Shown one piece after another: positions 1-24,433 of a DNA stretch of 44,897 nucleotides (within the stretch, counting starts at the first letter, position 1; every line of letters begins with the position of its first letter). A program made the position numbers and the translations under genes. This DNA comes from an uncultured Bacteroidales bacterium (GTDB taxonomy: Bacteria; Bacteroidota; Bacteroidia; Bacteroidales; Bacteroidaceae): contig CADAJV010000008.1 of NCBI GenBank assembly GCA_902788275.1, positions 1 through 44,897 of the forward strand. Reading direction: 5' to 3'. Below the pieces are notes generated by a model, which was not told the DNA's origin, ran no database searches, and saw only the letters and a list, made by a program, of their open reading frames with translations.

Positions 1-3000
1 CGGCTGCCTCCTTGGTCACGCCGGTGCCGTCGATGATGAAGTTGTAGATGGCAACTACGTCGGAGGTGTTGACATCGCCGTCGCCGTCAACGTCGGCAGA
101 GGGGGCGCTGGGCCATACAAGGCCGTCGATGACTAGGGTGTAGGCAGTCTCTACGCCCTCAACTTCGCCCTTATACATGGAGGCGTCAATGGCACCGGTG
201 TTGGCACCGATTCCAACCTCTTCGTCACGGCAAAGGAACTTGGCTCCGTCGGAGAAGGCTGTTCCGGCAGGGGTGTTCTCGCTGAAGAGCATGCCATGGA
301 TGCCGTTGACGGGAGTGGCCTTGTCGGTAAACTCAGTGGGGAACGGTATAACGATTTCCCTGTCTTCGCTCTCCTGATCAGGATCGCCAAGGATGATGAT
401 GGCAGACTCACCAGCGGCAAGTTCCTCTTTTTCGTATAGCTCTACGGTTGTGGTGCCGTCGTCGTTCTTGGTCATTTTCTTGATGCTATAGAGCTTGACA
501 TCCTCGTTGATTTCGGCTATGCTGGTGAGGTTGTAGGGCAGTGCGATAACGTCGATGAGGTTGTTGGCGAAGCGGTCGAGCACAATGAGCTCAGTCTCTT
601 CGGGGTCAATTTCAGTAAACTTCCATGAGCCGTCGCCAAAGACGGTGGCTTCGCCGACCTCTGCGTGCTGACCAGTGAGGCATGCCATGAGGGCGTAGTC
701 ATTATCAACACCGTTGGTAAGGTAGAATCCGAAGGATGCGTTGCCAAGCAGCTGTACGCTGTAGGGTACGGGCTGCTGGGCAGTGTATATGCTAGCGCCG
801 AGCTTGGCGGCATCGCCGAGGTAGAGGCCTGTGCCGAGGTTCTGGAAGGCGTACTGGCCTTCAGCACCCTCTATCTCAACGAGGCGCCACATGGCGTAGG
901 GATTGTACTCATAGTTGGAGGTGCCGTCTTCGGCCAGGAGTCCATAGCGGATATGGTCGCCGCTGTTGGGGCCATCGGCATAAAGTGCGGATTTGGCCAT
1001 AGGCAGCGGGTCTTCCTCGTCACCACCATTGAAGTGGGTCTCGGTGCTGGATGCGGAGGTGATGAAGTACCATTTGCCTGGTTCGGGCATTCTGACGGAA
1101 GCCAGGAAGGTCTCCTTGGCCTGCTGGAGTTTCTGCATAGCCTCGTCAACCTCGCTCTTGACTAGCGGAGTGGTGAAGCTGGAGCTGGTGGCCTCTGTCA
1201 CGGCAGCCTTCAGGGCATCGGCAGCCTCTTGTGTGGTCTCGCCAATGCCGTCGCCGATAACAGCAGTTGAGGCGTAGTCATTGAGAGTGGCGGCGAGTTT
1301 GGCTACCTCGGTGGTGTCGGCAAAGAGGGTCTTGACCTCCTCGATGGCAGCGCGGAGAGCAGCGATATCTTCGTCGGTGGCGGTGCTGCTGCTAACCTTG
1401 CCGAAGGCTTCCTGTGCAAGGGCATACATCTTGTCGGCCACGGGTGCAAGGCCCTCGGTGTAAATATACTGTGAGAGAGTTTTGTCCATCACTACGGGGA
1501 ACACCTGCAGTTCAGCCAGCGAGAAGAAGGGATACTGGGCTCCGGAGTTCTTGCGGCTGTTCTTGGTAGCGACTACGTCCATACGGATGTATTTGTAGGG
1601 CTTGCCAAGGTCGATGGTGGGGGTGGTGACCCAGTTCTGGTAGTTTTCGGTGTTGTTGCCCCAGAGGTCGGTGATGTCTATCTGGCGGATGAAGGTCCAG
1701 GCTTCATCTTCGGTGAGGCTGGCCCTGTCGTCAGCATTGGATGCATAGAAGCTGATGATGGTGGGACGGTCTTGTGTGCCCCATGAGTCGCAGCGCTGCA
1801 GCATCTTGACGTTGAAGCCAGAGAGATTGTTGTCAGAGAAGTCGAACTGGAGGTTGTGGGGCTTGGTCATGGGTTCAACCACATCGGGATGCCATGAGGA
1901 ATGGAAAATGGATGTGGTAGAGTCAATGAGGGCAGCGTAAGTGCCTTGATTGGGGTCCTTAGCATTGGACCATACCTGGCGCTGGGAGTCCTCCTTGTCA
2001 TCGTCGGCATCGGTGAGGATGCCTACGGAGTCAACAGTATAGACTACTATTTTGTCCCAAAGGCCGTTGGCCTCAGTGGCGAGGGAGTAGAGCTGGTTGT
2101 TGCGCTCGGCCTGGGCCTTGATTTCGGGCAGACGGGCCTGTACATCCTGGGGCACAAGGCGTATATACCATGTGGACATGCCGTTGATGGCGTTGTGGTT
2201 CCAGGAAACGATGTCGCCACTCTGACCGGAGCCGTTTCCGTGGCTTTCGGGGTGGTAGGCATAGGTGCTGAAGGTGTTGTAGATAATCCACTGCAGCGAG
2301 CCGATGGGCTTGATGATCTGCTCATAGCCTGGGGTGGCGCTGAGGAGCACCTTCTGGCTTGCGGCAGCACGCTCGGCACTATTGATATAGCGGTCGTTGT
2401 CGTAATTCTGGATAAGGAAGTTGCCACTGGAGGTGGTGGTGATGTGGAATACCTGCTTGGTGTCCTCGCCGTTGAAGGTGGTCCATCCAAGCTGTGTGGC
2501 GGAGTTGACGGTCATGGCTTTCTCCAGTCCGTTCTTGTTGACAAACTCAGGATAGGCGCTGACGATGTAGTAATATCCGTCGGTGATGGGGTTGACACTG
2601 GTCTCCACGGCCTCCTTGGCAGCCTTGAGCTTGTCGATGGCAGCCTGGTATTCCTCGTCGGTATGCTGCTCGAGTGAGATGAGCAGAGCTTCCTCAAGGG
2701 CCTGGTTGAAGGCGTCAACCTTGTCCTGAGGATAGAGTCCAGGATCGTCGCCTGACTCATACTCGATGCCTGCCTCGGAGATCTCGTCAATGAGAGCCTG
2801 GAGGTCGGCCTGCAGGTCGTGCTGGTAGAAAACGCGATAGGCGTTCCATGCGTTGGTGTCATGATACTCCCAGAAACGCACGGTGGAGATGCCCCAGTAG
2901 GCGCAGTTGCCCATAAACTGGTTTTTGGCGTTCTCGCGGGCAAAGGACCATACTACGGAGTTGTCGTCCCATGTGGGGCCATACTTCTCTTCCAAATCAG

Positions 3001-4679: not shown

Positions 4680-5662
4680 TTGTTTAGTTTATACCATGCG
4701 ACGGTTTCGGCTACTCCGCGAGGCAGCTGATAAGCTGGGCGGAAGGCCAGCTCCTTGGCTGCCAAGGCGATAGAGCACTGCCAGTCGCGCTGTTTGAGAA
4801 TGTTGTACTTATCTTTGTTGAGGGGTGTGGACTTGTGGGTGAGGGCACTAATCCACTGGCCGGCATAGCATACGGCCTTGAGCAGCCAGAGGGGGGCGGT
4901 GATACGCAGCACGCGCCTGACACCCATCTCCTGTTGTAGCAGCAGGCTGAACTGGCGACTATTGTAGGTGAGGCCGTCGGAGAGCTGATATATATGTCCG
5001 GGTACTCCGGCGGTGAGGGCCTGCAGGGTGGCCTGACAGAGGTCGCTGACATAGATGAATGTAATCTGCTGGGGCTTGAAGCCTACAGCGAAATCAACAT
5101 GTCGCCTGATGCTTTTGGCCATGAGGAAATAGTCTCTCTCGCGAGGGCCATAGACACCGGTGGGGCGCAGGATGATGCTGGCAGGGAGGATGGCGAGCAG
5201 GCTCTGCTCTGCTTGGTATTTGGAGCGTCCGTAAGCGGTGGGGGCGACGGTGCCGCAGGGAAGGCCATCCTTCATGGGTACGGCGCTGAGCGAGCTCATG
5301 AGCACGAAGCGCTGAGGCTCGAGATGAAGGTCGGCAAGAGACTGAGCCAGATTGCGTGTACCCTCGCAGTTGGTCTGCATAAAAGCCTCTTCGTTGGCAG
5401 CCTTGGTGGCTCCGGCAGCATGGACAACGTAATTCCATCCCTGTCCATCGTGGGAGTCGGCAAAGTGCCTGATTTCCTTTTTCAGGCTGTCGGCATCGCC
5501 TAGCGACAAGGTTATGAAGTGGATGCGCCCGTCTTGCAGCCATTGGCGCGACGATGAGGGGCGTATCCCTGCCCATACGTCATAGCCTGCCGCCAATGCC
5601 GCCTCCACAAGGTGACTGCCTACAAAGCCGCTGGCTCCAGTGATGAGTAGGGACTGCTTCAT
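4670..5662 (-). CDS. NAD(P)-dependent epimerase/dehydratase (extended SDR)
   Basis: 330 aa. The Rossmann glycine motif TGASGFVGSH lies at residues 8-17 and the catalytic Y-x3-K at Y144/K148 (YGRSKYQAE), with the usual SSLSAV serine region before it (123-128). The architecture fits the extended SDR family (dihydroflavonol reductase / 3-beta-HSD-like branch) acting on a nucleotide sugar, sterol-like or keto-lipid substrate; the exact substrate cannot be read from the sequence. It overlaps the downstream PAP2 gene by 10 bases and follows the sirtuin gene by 9 bases, so the three genes form one transcription unit. A lipid-related role is suggested by the PAP2 partner but is inference. Confidence 0.85.
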   Translation of the reverse strand: MKQSLLITGASGFVGSHLVEAALAAGYDVWAGIRPSSSRQWLQDGRIHFITLSLGDADSLKKEIRHFADSHDGQGWNYVVHAAGATKAANEEAFMQTNCEGTRNLAQSLADLHLEPQRFVLMSSLSAVPMKDGLPCGTVAPTAYGRSKYQAEQSLLAILPASIILRPTGVYGPRERDYFLMAKSIRRHVDFAVGFKPQQITFIYVSDLCQATLQALTAGVPGHIYQLSDGLTYNSRQFSLLLQQEMGVRRVLRITAPLWLLKAVCYAGQWISALTHKSTPLNKDKYNILKQRDWQCSIALAAKELAFRPAYQLPRGVAETVAWYKLNKWI

Positions 5663-22490: not shown

Positions 22491-23804
22491 TCAAAGATTA
22501 AACGCTTTCTTGATGTCGTCCACGCGGTCCAGTTTCTCCCAGGTAAATAGCTCTACCTCAATGTCCAGTTCCTTGGGGCCGTTGGCTGCCTTGCCGTTGT
22601 TGTAGCGGCTGGTGAAGTGTTTTATTATTTTTTGCGGCTCGCGTCCCATATGGCCGTAGGCGGCAGTCTCCTCATAGATAGGCTTGCGCAGCTGCAGGTC
22701 ACGGATGATTCCGTTAGGTGTCAGACTGAACAGTTGCTTTACCTTCTCGGCTATCTCACCGTCGCTCATGCTCACATGGCTCTTGCCGTAGGTGTCAACA
22801 AACACGCTTACGGGCTTTGCCTCGCCAATAGCGTAGCTCAACTGCACCAGCATCTCGTCGCTCACGCCGGCGGCCACCATGTTTTTGGCAATATGGCGTG
22901 CAGCGTAGGCTGCCGAGCGGTCCACCTTGCTGGGGTCTTTACCTGAGAAGGCGCCGCCGCCGTGTGTACCCCTGCCACCATAAGTGTCCACTATTATTTT
23001 GCGGCCCGTGAGGCCTGTGTCGCCGTGAGGCCCGCCAATCACGAATTTACCCGTGGGGTTTACCAAATAGCGCGGTTCCTCGGTAAACAGGCGGCTTACC
23101 TCGGGGTCGTTCAGCTCCCTCATAACTCTCGGCATGAGTATGGTTTTCACATCCTGCTCAATCCTTTCCTGCATCTGCTTGTCGGCCTTGGCCTGGTCGC
23201 CGCCGCACTGGTCGGCAGTGATAAACTCATCGTGTTGGGTACTTACCACGATGGTGTTCACGCGCTCGGGGCGGCCATCGTTGCTATATTGTACAGTCAC
23301 CTGACTCTTCGAGTCGGGGCGCAGGTACTTCATTTCGCGCCCCTCCTTACGTATGGCGGCCAGCGTCTGCATGATGCTGTGGGCCAGGCTTAGGGGCAGG
23401 GGCATGTAGTTCTTAGTCTCGTTGGTGGCATAGCCGAACATCATGCCCTGGTCGCCGGCGCCCTGAGCTTCCTCAGTCTCGCGACTCACTCCGCGATTGA
23501 TGTCTTGACTCTGCTCGTGCACGGCATTGAGTACACCGCAGCTGTCGGCGTCAAAGCAGTATTCCGACTTAGTGTAACCAATGCGTCTGATAGTTTCGCG
23601 CGCCACCAGCGGAATGTCGATATAGGCGTCAGAACTAACCTCGCCGGCCACAATTACCTGACCGGTGGTCACCAATGTCTCGCATGCCACGTGAGACTGA
23701 GGGTCATAGGCCAGCAGCTTGTCAAGCACGGCATCGCTTATCTGGTCGGCCACCTTGTCGGGATGGCCTTCGCTTACGGATTCAGAAGTAAATAAGTAAC
23801 TCAT
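22491..23804 (-). CDS. metK: S-adenosylmethionine synthase
   Basis: 437 aa, slightly longer than E. coli MetK, as in other Bacteroidetes. N-terminal [37 protein letters not shown] (about 116-131) and the P-loop-like [19 protein letters not shown] (about 281) are all present. It makes SAM from methionine and ATP. It is the first gene of a tight cluster with LOG, DUF4271, hemD, rnpA and yidD (gaps of 7 to 62 bases). The leader carries a SAM-II-like element, so the product probably represses its own expression. Confidence 0.97.
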
Positions 23805-23856
23805 CTTTTATACCTTTTAATAATTATACATAGCGCAGTATAGAAGATAGAGAGAG

Positions 23857-23909
23857 CCGTGTTTTAGCATTTTTTCCAGTGGTTGCAATCAGCACAAATC
23901 TGTCCACTT
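23857..23909 (-). promoter_or_regulatory. SAM-II-type riboswitch candidate in the metK leader
   Basis: The 53-nt minus-strand RNA starts AAGUGGACAGAUUUG. P1 is AGUGG (23904-23908) with CCACU (23878-23882). Loop 1 holds GAUUU and ends in AUUGCAA (23883-23889). After P1 comes an A-rich linker, then GCUAAAA (23862-23868) and CACGG. GUG of loop 1 (23893-23895) can pair with the tail CAC (23859-23861), giving the H-type pseudoknot. As I recall the crystallised marine SAM-II RNA (52 nt), GAUUU, AUUGCAA and GCUAAAA are the same in order and spacing while the stems differ, i.e. covary. The element begins about 10 nt after the predicted transcription start. The gene downstream, metK, is the expected target class. 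Confidence 0.85.
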
Positions 23910-23924
23910 CTAAACTTTGCCGTG

Positions 23925-23956
23925 CAAAGGTAGTGCAAACCGAGAGAAAAACCAAA
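23925..23956 (-). promoter_or_regulatory. Promoter of the metK cluster
   Basis: Minus strand TTTG (23953-23956), a 20-base spacer and TACCTTTG (23925-23932). Both boxes match the Bacteroidetes primary sigma consensus. The predicted start is near 23918, giving a leader of about 115 nt. Confidence 0.8.
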
Positions 23957-24433
23957 TTTTATTTGTGTTTTTCCGAGACGTTTCCTATCTGGACTCGCAA
24001 ATAGTAAGGCAAAGAATGCAATTTGAGAGAAATCTTTTTGTTAGGCAATAATATAGATGTTGGCACAGATAACACTACCTGCGAAATGGTCATACGCACC
24101 TGTTACTGTTAAGTTTATATCATACGCCCCTGTCGCTTCGCGACACCCCCTCTATCTTAGAGGGGGAGCCGTCTCCTTGCCATCAAAAGCAGAACGGCTT
24201 GCAAGCTCTCCCTCTAAGATAGAGGGAGTACCCCGAAGGGGGGAGGGCGTATGAAAGTAACTATGAAAGCAGAACGGCTTGCGGTAGAGCAGTTCGCGAT
24301 GCCTGCGGCATTCTTAGAGGGGGGGGCGGCTCCCTGTTTTTCTTGCACTTACATACAGCAGAATGGTGTACAGATCCATCCTCTTTCTGAAATAGAGGAG
24401 TGTAAGAGTTACGCCTTCTTTTCTTCGCGTATG
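23957..24433. other. Intergenic region with palindromic repeats, no gene seen
   Basis: Between the metK promoter and the end of the ThiF-like gene there is no coding sequence. The stretch holds a degenerate CATACGCACC end (about 24091), the 24121-24253 inverted-repeat element, and after it a second copy of GAAAGCAGAACGGCTTGC (also present inside the element). A weak CCTCT/AGAGG hairpin near 24380-24400 may end the ThiF-like transcript. Confidence 0.7.
24121..24253. repeat. 133-bp inverted-repeat element with CATACGCCC ends
   Basis: The ends read CATACGCCC and GGGCGTATG. Each arm holds two further small hairpins: TGTCGC/GCGACA and CCTCTATCTTAGAGG on the left, CCCCTTCGGGG and CCCTCTATCTTAGAGGG on the right. 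The middle carries AAAGCAGAACGGCTTGC. It encodes nothing and resembles a REP/BIME or MITE-like unit. A related single arm lies at 10267. Confidence 0.8.

Follow-up and report, generated by a model that had tools for sequence, protein, structure and literature searches.

On the minus strand of the window (the whole stretch of 44,897 bases analyzed here), an open reading frame of 437 aa is preceded by a structured leader and a Bacteroidota-type promoter element (Table 1). We take the reading frame to be metK, encoding S-adenosylmethionine (SAM) synthetase, from its N-terminal motif SEGHPDK. The entire window was compared with 4227 RNA families at the gathering threshold (cmscan). Only two matches were obtained at this threshold, one tRNA and the family RF01726 ('SAM-II long loops'), which aligned over its full model (1-60) to minus strand 23913-23854 with 58.0 bits against a gathering cut-off of 44 (E 1.1e-8). 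This E value, together with a score above the cut-off, indicates that the match is not due to chance, and membership of the locus in RF01726 is well supported. As a predicted riboswitch, the window copy would bind SAM. A family search found one copy of RF01726 in the genome.

A first-pass annotation had proposed a SAM-II-type riboswitch in the metK leader, to be checked with covariance models. The locus indeed matches such a model above threshold, the matching family being neither RF00521 nor SAM-V: among the 4227 families, no gathering-level match to RF00521 or SAM-V was obtained in the window. A search of the genome with RF00521 also gave 0 matches; the same search was positive in 0 of 14 control genomes and is therefore silent on absence. 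All sequence blocks named in the annotation were found in place on the minus strand, by sequence and by the RF01726 match. The gap between the aptamer tail and the metK start, given as ~50 nt, measures 52 nt from 23857, and the promoter placed just ahead of the aptamer has its -7 element at 23932-23925, 15 nt before 23909. We take a TTTG at 23956-23953 to be a possible -33 element. Both inner P2 blocks, UUGC and GCUAAA, are present at the locus.

Table 1. Features of the metK leader, in window coordinates
Feature	Position	Strand	Basis
Bacteroidota-type -7 promoter element TACCTTTG	23925..23932	-	sequence; TAnnTTTG survey
SAM-II long-loop aptamer	23854..23913	-	Rfam RF01726, cmscan 58.0 bits
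P1 5' strand AGUGG	23904..23908	-	Rfam alignment; P1 pairs over 242 leaders
GAUUU block	23900-23896	-	sequence
GUG of loop, opposite CAC	23895-23893	-	sequence
AUUGCAA block	23889-23883	-	sequence
P1 3' strand CCACU	23878..23882	-	Rfam alignment; P1 pairs over 242 leaders
A-rich linker	23875-23870	-	sequence
GCUAAAA block	23868-23862	-	sequence
Conserved GCUAAA, aptamer 3' strand	23863..23868	-	Rfam alignment and leader set
CAC	23861-23859	-	sequence
Tail element T, complementary to aptamer 5' half and 5' flank (23921-23893)	23832..23861	-	window folding; class-wide tests
Part of T able to pair with metK start region	23837..23852	-	helices CUC/GAG, AUCUU/AAGAU, UAUACU/GGUAUA
metK start region maskable by T, including start codon 23804-23802	23800..23814	-	window folding
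metK, S-adenosylmethionine synthetase, 437 aa	22491..23804	-	ORF list; start codon 23804-23802

An interspersed palindromic repeat lies at 24095-24265, in the stretch from the metK promoter region to the next gene. It gave 96 match rows in the genome, the palindromic sequence causing some places to be counted on both strands, and several of the matches are no more than about 80 bases from the start of a contig.

Spread of the family and conservation of the leader

By family search (E up to 0.001), RF01726 was present in all 19 searched genomes of the genus, each time above the cut-off, in 124 of the 151 searched genomes of the family (123 above the cut-off) and in 63 of 395 in the phylum (57 above the cut-off). 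All results described here are computed and concern predicted RNA structures. A first set of 176 loci was obtained by fetching 176 of the 193 matched genomes. Parsing placed 174 of these loci upstream of metK, 165 by a parser accepting aptamers within 450 bases of metK and 9 by hand, and yielded 173 distinct leaders; L044 and L175 were omitted, L044 being a metK leader by eye. Tests on the first set used 170 leaders in 58 clusters, or 57 clusters whose tails measured 50-210 nt. Note that clusters were defined by 62% tail identity, not by a tree, and that one misparsed leader (L163) was kept in the tests. A second set from named genomes gave 74 leaders parsed as metK out of at least 80 pattern loci; this set was barred from the count of ATG conservation, as its search pattern includes the aptamer ATG. 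The loci that did not parse (L178, L183, L184, L198, L246 and L251) all look like metK by eye except L183. The held-out set comprised 29 leaders of this second set unlike those of the first (27 clusters; parser window 350 bases), with 21 clusters used in the pairing tests and 20 in the accessibility test.

Three loci are of separate interest. At ~2110-2135 of L183, a SAM-II long-loop aptamer precedes a reading frame that does not look like metK and by eye resembles a membrane transporter; if so, the target differs in this locus. L175, from a genome outside the class, carries a sub-threshold RF01726 match (31.9 bits; ~575-630, minus strand) ahead of a reading frame that by eye resembles O-acetylhomoserine sulfhydrylase (metY); this is perhaps a classical SAM-II element. 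In L184 (~5010-5037), the metK frame by eye seems to span the whole aptamer, with an ATG at the P1 5' strand, which would mean either an aptamer within the coding region or an error of frame in the assembly.

The promoter motif TAnnTTTG was found upstream in 227 of 246 leaders, compared to 16.0 expected from shuffles, at a median distance of 16 nt from P1. The aptamer thus lies close to the mRNA 5' end. Stem conservation in relatives was a check proposed in the annotation, and P1 is conserved: among 242 leaders, the third pair is T-A in 180 and A-T in 58, indicating covariation, and the fourth is G-C in 238. The constancy of pairs 1-2 says little, their G side having been demanded by the script. 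The annotated pairing of the loop GUG with the CAC (outer P2) fared less well. It exists in the window but showed neither conservation nor covariation over 159 distinct loop/tail combinations, with an own pair run of 3.04 compared to 3.09 after swapping (permutation p 0.83), and is not supported as a conserved feature.

Where AU meets GCUAAA, after an A run, an AUG is formed inside the aptamer (AAAAAAUGCUAAA); the ATG is present in 165 of the 173 leaders of the first set. Conceivably, this AUG opens a leader ORF coupled to metK, an explanation that we consider highly improbable. ORFs from the aptamer AUG have a median of 24 codons as against 16 with shuffled tails, but their stops are widely scattered, some lying far upstream of metK and others within it, and the number of codons to the first stop is alike in the three frames (medians 21, 20 and 18; 75 leaders). 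Given this equality, ORF length is attributable to the uneven composition of the tail, and the leader ORF was rejected. The AUG is more simply understood as a conserved part of the aptamer.

The distance from GCUAAA to the metK AUG falls into two classes: it is 0-6 nt in 10 of 247 leaders, 7-49 nt in none and at least 50 nt in 237. The short-spaced leaders are L089, L103 and L153 of the first set and seven named contigs, of which L193 and L212 are labelled Prevotellaceae and the remaining five Bacteroidia or Bacteroidales. In these ten leaders, the folded aptamer would itself cover the initiation site, and direct blocking of the 30S subunit by the SAM-bound aptamer, with tail pairings being secondary, is the natural reading. 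We nevertheless regard direct blocking as an improbable explanation of control, since the start codon in the window and in the 237 long-spaced leaders is at least 50 nt from GCUAAA, beyond a 30S footprint. With an AUG at such a distance, the signal must be carried from the aptamer to the start codon by other means. As a separate observation, the metK ATG of L208 and L211 directly follows GCUAAA, so that the start codon itself would be the outer P2 strand.

Complementarity of the tail to the aptamer and to the start region

We analyzed the tail, the segment between aptamer and start codon, for pairing with the aptamer 5' half (5' flank, P1 5' strand, GAUUU, loop and UUGC). Each tail was compared with 100 dinucleotide shuffles of itself. 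The 5' half paired with its own tail better than with shuffles, at a mean z of -1.53 over 170 leaders (p <=0.05 in 39% and <=0.01 in 19%) and -1.64 over 58 clusters. When tails were swapped between clusters, the own tail was 3.13 kcal/mol better than expected from the swaps (permutation p <2e-4) and outperformed the median swap for 52 of the 57 clusters. The aptamer loop alone contributed -1.34 kcal/mol in this test, and the linker/3' strand 0.00 kcal/mol (57 clusters). The 5' flank alone gave no signal against the tail (p 0.29); note that it is placed partly before the transcription start. Swap controls with coding sequence (+60 to +95) and with sequence upstream of the promoter gave -0.55 (p 0.076) and -0.58 (p 0.070), respectively.

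The aptamer:tail complementarity had been found by exploration and was then tested on the held-out leaders. There the shuffle test gave a mean z of -1.38 (p 8e-5) and the swap test -2.80 kcal/mol (19 of 21 clusters, permutation p <2e-4), with controls at p 0.15 and 0.16 and the loop alone at p 0.064. Within the genus alone, the swap test was not significant (p 0.11, 10 clusters). RNAalifold, applied to the 12 clusters with at least 5 leaders, recovered P1 in 11 (absent in L042) and the aptamer:tail hairpin in none, so that this hairpin rests on the shuffle and swap tests. Aptamer:tail complementarity across the class is strongly supported. As the pairing consumes P1 and conserved blocks, it should exclude the folded aptamer.

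The 3' strand of the aptamer may have a partner as well. The tails of 36 of 237 leaders, compared to 19.3 in shuffles, contain a complement (at most 1 mismatch) to GCTAAA extended by its following base, and a GCUAAAG:CUUUAG hairpin appears in cluster L052 (RNAalifold); it is possibly a second anti-aptamer hairpin. The tail of L166 contains TTTAGCACTTT, a complement of the aptamer strand AAAGTGCTAA.

The tail is also complementary to the start region, defined in the class-wide tests as -17 to +18. Here the mean z was -0.46 over 170 leaders and -0.58 over 58 clusters (p 4e-4) in the shuffle test, and swapping showed an advantage of the own tail of -1.24 kcal/mol (p <2e-4), with the own tail better in 37 of 57 clusters. 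The segment from -17 to +3 alone gave -0.83 kcal/mol (p 2e-4), and coding bases 0 to 30 alone gave 0.02 kcal/mol (p 0.54), placing the signal upstream of the codon. In the held-out leaders, the swap test was again positive (p 0.0024, 13 of 21 clusters), but the shuffle test was not replicated (mean z -0.15, p 0.59). The genus alone was positive in the swap test (p 0.016, 10 clusters; control p 0.33) and contains three sequence types, each complementary to its own start: AUCUUCUAUACU/GGUAUAAAAGAU, CAUCUUUC/GAAAGAUG and CUUUUCCAUUUAUUA/UAAUAAAAGGAAAAUGG.

Accessibility of the start region was evaluated with the aptamer removed from the fold. The unpaired fraction was 0.435 compared to 0.492 for shuffles (p 0.0095, 57 clusters), and including the aptamer raised openness more than it did in shuffles (p 0.0013, 57 clusters). 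The held-out leaders (20 clusters, two transcript ends) behaved in the same direction, with p 0.033 and 0.090 for start pairing and p 0.070 and 0.097 for the openness gain. Among the 12 RNAalifold clusters, tail:start pairs were seen in two, L001 and L010; those of L003 were discounted as a local hairpin at the start. In the cluster of the window (8 leaders), RNAalifold found 14 consensus pairs between T and the start region, with 2 two-sided changes and 91% paired. Tail:start complementarity across the class is moderately supported and weaker than aptamer:tail complementarity. In many leaders the two pairings share tail positions, though not beyond shuffles (0.36 versus 0.31, p 0.33).

We also folded the window leader itself, with 23921 as the assumed 5' end. 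In transcripts ending between -15 and +20, the tail pairs with the aptamer 5' half at a mean pairing probability of 0.71-0.80 (shared tail positions). When the aptamer is left out of the fold, a hairpin of 23852-23837 with 23814-23800 (-11.5 kcal/mol) covers the start codon at 23804-23802. However, once at least 34 nt of coding sequence are included, the start hairpin becomes the favoured equilibrium structure already in the absence of SAM, the aptamer 5' half then pairing with coding sequence. A switch is thus plausible for the window leader only with folding during transcription. Neither pairing of this leader alone beats its own shuffles (aptamer p 0.31; start p 0.10), and it is from the class-wide evidence that the window leader would be expected to use T for switching.

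Start-codon masking and its alternatives

These pairings suggest a mechanism for the leader, in which the aptamer would be transcribed near the mRNA 5' end. Without SAM, T would pair with the aptamer 5' half, leaving the A-rich start region open. With SAM, the aptamer would retain its own 5' half, and the freed T would form a hairpin covering the metK start codon, switching translation off. We put at slightly better than even the chance that the locus is a SAM-II long-loop riboswitch that shuts off metK translation by start-codon masking at high SAM. What we infer is SAM binding by this copy, how the events follow one another, which way control runs and what it does to translation; SAM as the off signal is adopted mainly because feedback on SAM synthesis is expected. 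In this phylum, start-region structure reportedly tunes initiation (PMC6847099). The first-pass annotation had doubted that the usual masking of a Shine-Dalgarno site applies here. This doubt was apt, as the comparative evidence favours masking of the start codon itself.

Premature transcription termination under aptamer control, with the tail:aptamer pairing as antiterminator, would be a different use of the same tail. Terminators are frequent in classical SAM-II leaders, according to PMC2258182, and a scan of the stretch from the aptamer to metK detected terminator-like hairpins for 18 of 237 leaders, compared to 7.2 in shuffles. Of the 18, 16 have at least 3 positions of at least one terminator arm occupied by the tail:aptamer pairing (counted without shuffle control), so that the two structures would exclude each other. 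However, the scan, which covered loops of 3-8 nt and missed longer ones such as that of L154, detected no terminator-like hairpin in 219 of 237 leaders, and 0 terminator-like sites were found at 23600-24300 of the window, where 0.6 were expected. We therefore judge this explanation unlikely. Termination control probably operates in some lineages, not in that of the window. In the terminator lineages, tail:aptamer pairing could act as an antiterminator, which agrees with SAM as the off signal but is no proof of it.

Seven leaders (L176, L177, L192, L223, L224, L250 and L255), in which 6-8 of the 9-10 nt forming the terminator 5' arm engage in tail:aptamer pairing, were considered as antiterminators that would prove this direction, and were dropped. 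They had been hand-picked from 10 leaders with stems of at least 9; the other three (L106, L108 and L219) give 0, 0 and 1. The terminators of L223, L224 and L255 are nearly identical, and at least half of the 3' arm is covered as well in L176, L223, L224 and L255 (5 of 9 in L192). Because the 3' arms are covered too and the leaders were picked by eye, arm coverage shows mutual exclusion, not direction.

Alternatively, SAM might free a C-rich, G-poor tail for loading of Rho and thereby cause Rho-dependent termination. The composition of the tails would suit this (C 0.256, G 0.163; C exceeding G in 69 of 77 clusters). Yet ten leaders are practically tail-less, and Rho does not predict the specific complementarity of a tail to its own aptamer, leaving this explanation with a low probability in our estimate.

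Masking of the start codon may be part of a more general arrangement. Somewhat short of an even chance, in our view, is that the SAM-II long loops of Bacteroidota share an expression platform suited to ribosomes working without Shine-Dalgarno sites. It would consist of a tail complementary to the aptamer 5' half and to its own start region; in a few lineages, the tail would instead be part of a terminator, and in others it would be gone, with the AUG abutting the aptamer.

Comparison with known SAM-II systems

Translational riboswitch models mostly rely on a hidden Shine-Dalgarno site. The mRNAs of Bacteroidota are described as being without such sites, which their ribosomes fail to recognise (PMC6847099, PMC9976891). 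If true, start-codon masking in metK leaders, or a start codon placed directly at the aptamer, would show riboswitch control of initiation without a Shine-Dalgarno site. It would provide concrete helices for mutation, and it bears on how Bacteroidales regulate SAM, a central metabolite.

The aptamer family itself is not new, having been in print since 2010: Table 1 of Weinberg et al. 2010 lists 'SAM-II long loops', RF01726, for Bacteroidetes and marine sequences (PMC2864571). SAM-II aptamers may be best known from Alphaproteobacteria, as the annotation had remarked, but in view of this listing their occurrence here is no surprise. Corbino et al. 2005 likewise place the Bacteroides group, including B. 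thetaiotaomicron, among the carriers of SAM-II (PMC1273637). The window locus agrees with the 2010 family in its covariance match above the cut-off and in its Bacteroidetes affiliation. We found no expression platform named in the main text of that paper, which points to an additional file (PMC2864571), whereas a platform is proposed here. A limited literature search, covering few subscription journals and the 2010 paper without its additional file, found no expression platform for the RF01726 class in print. On that basis, the mode of switching is the apparently new part, the aptamer being known.

Like SAM-II/metA (RF00521) as described by Corbino et al., the window leader combines P1 and a pseudoknot aptamer with a met gene and a promoter just before P1; unlike it, many RF00521 leaders carry putative terminators (PMC1273637). 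The SAM-II riboswitch of Sinorhizobium meliloti metA resembles the proposed system in its control of translation by SAM and in a used start codon 74 nt from the riboswitch Shine-Dalgarno sequence (PMC9373788). However, the element masked in S. meliloti is a Shine-Dalgarno sequence lying within the aptamer, whereas in the metK leaders a separate tail would mask the start codon.
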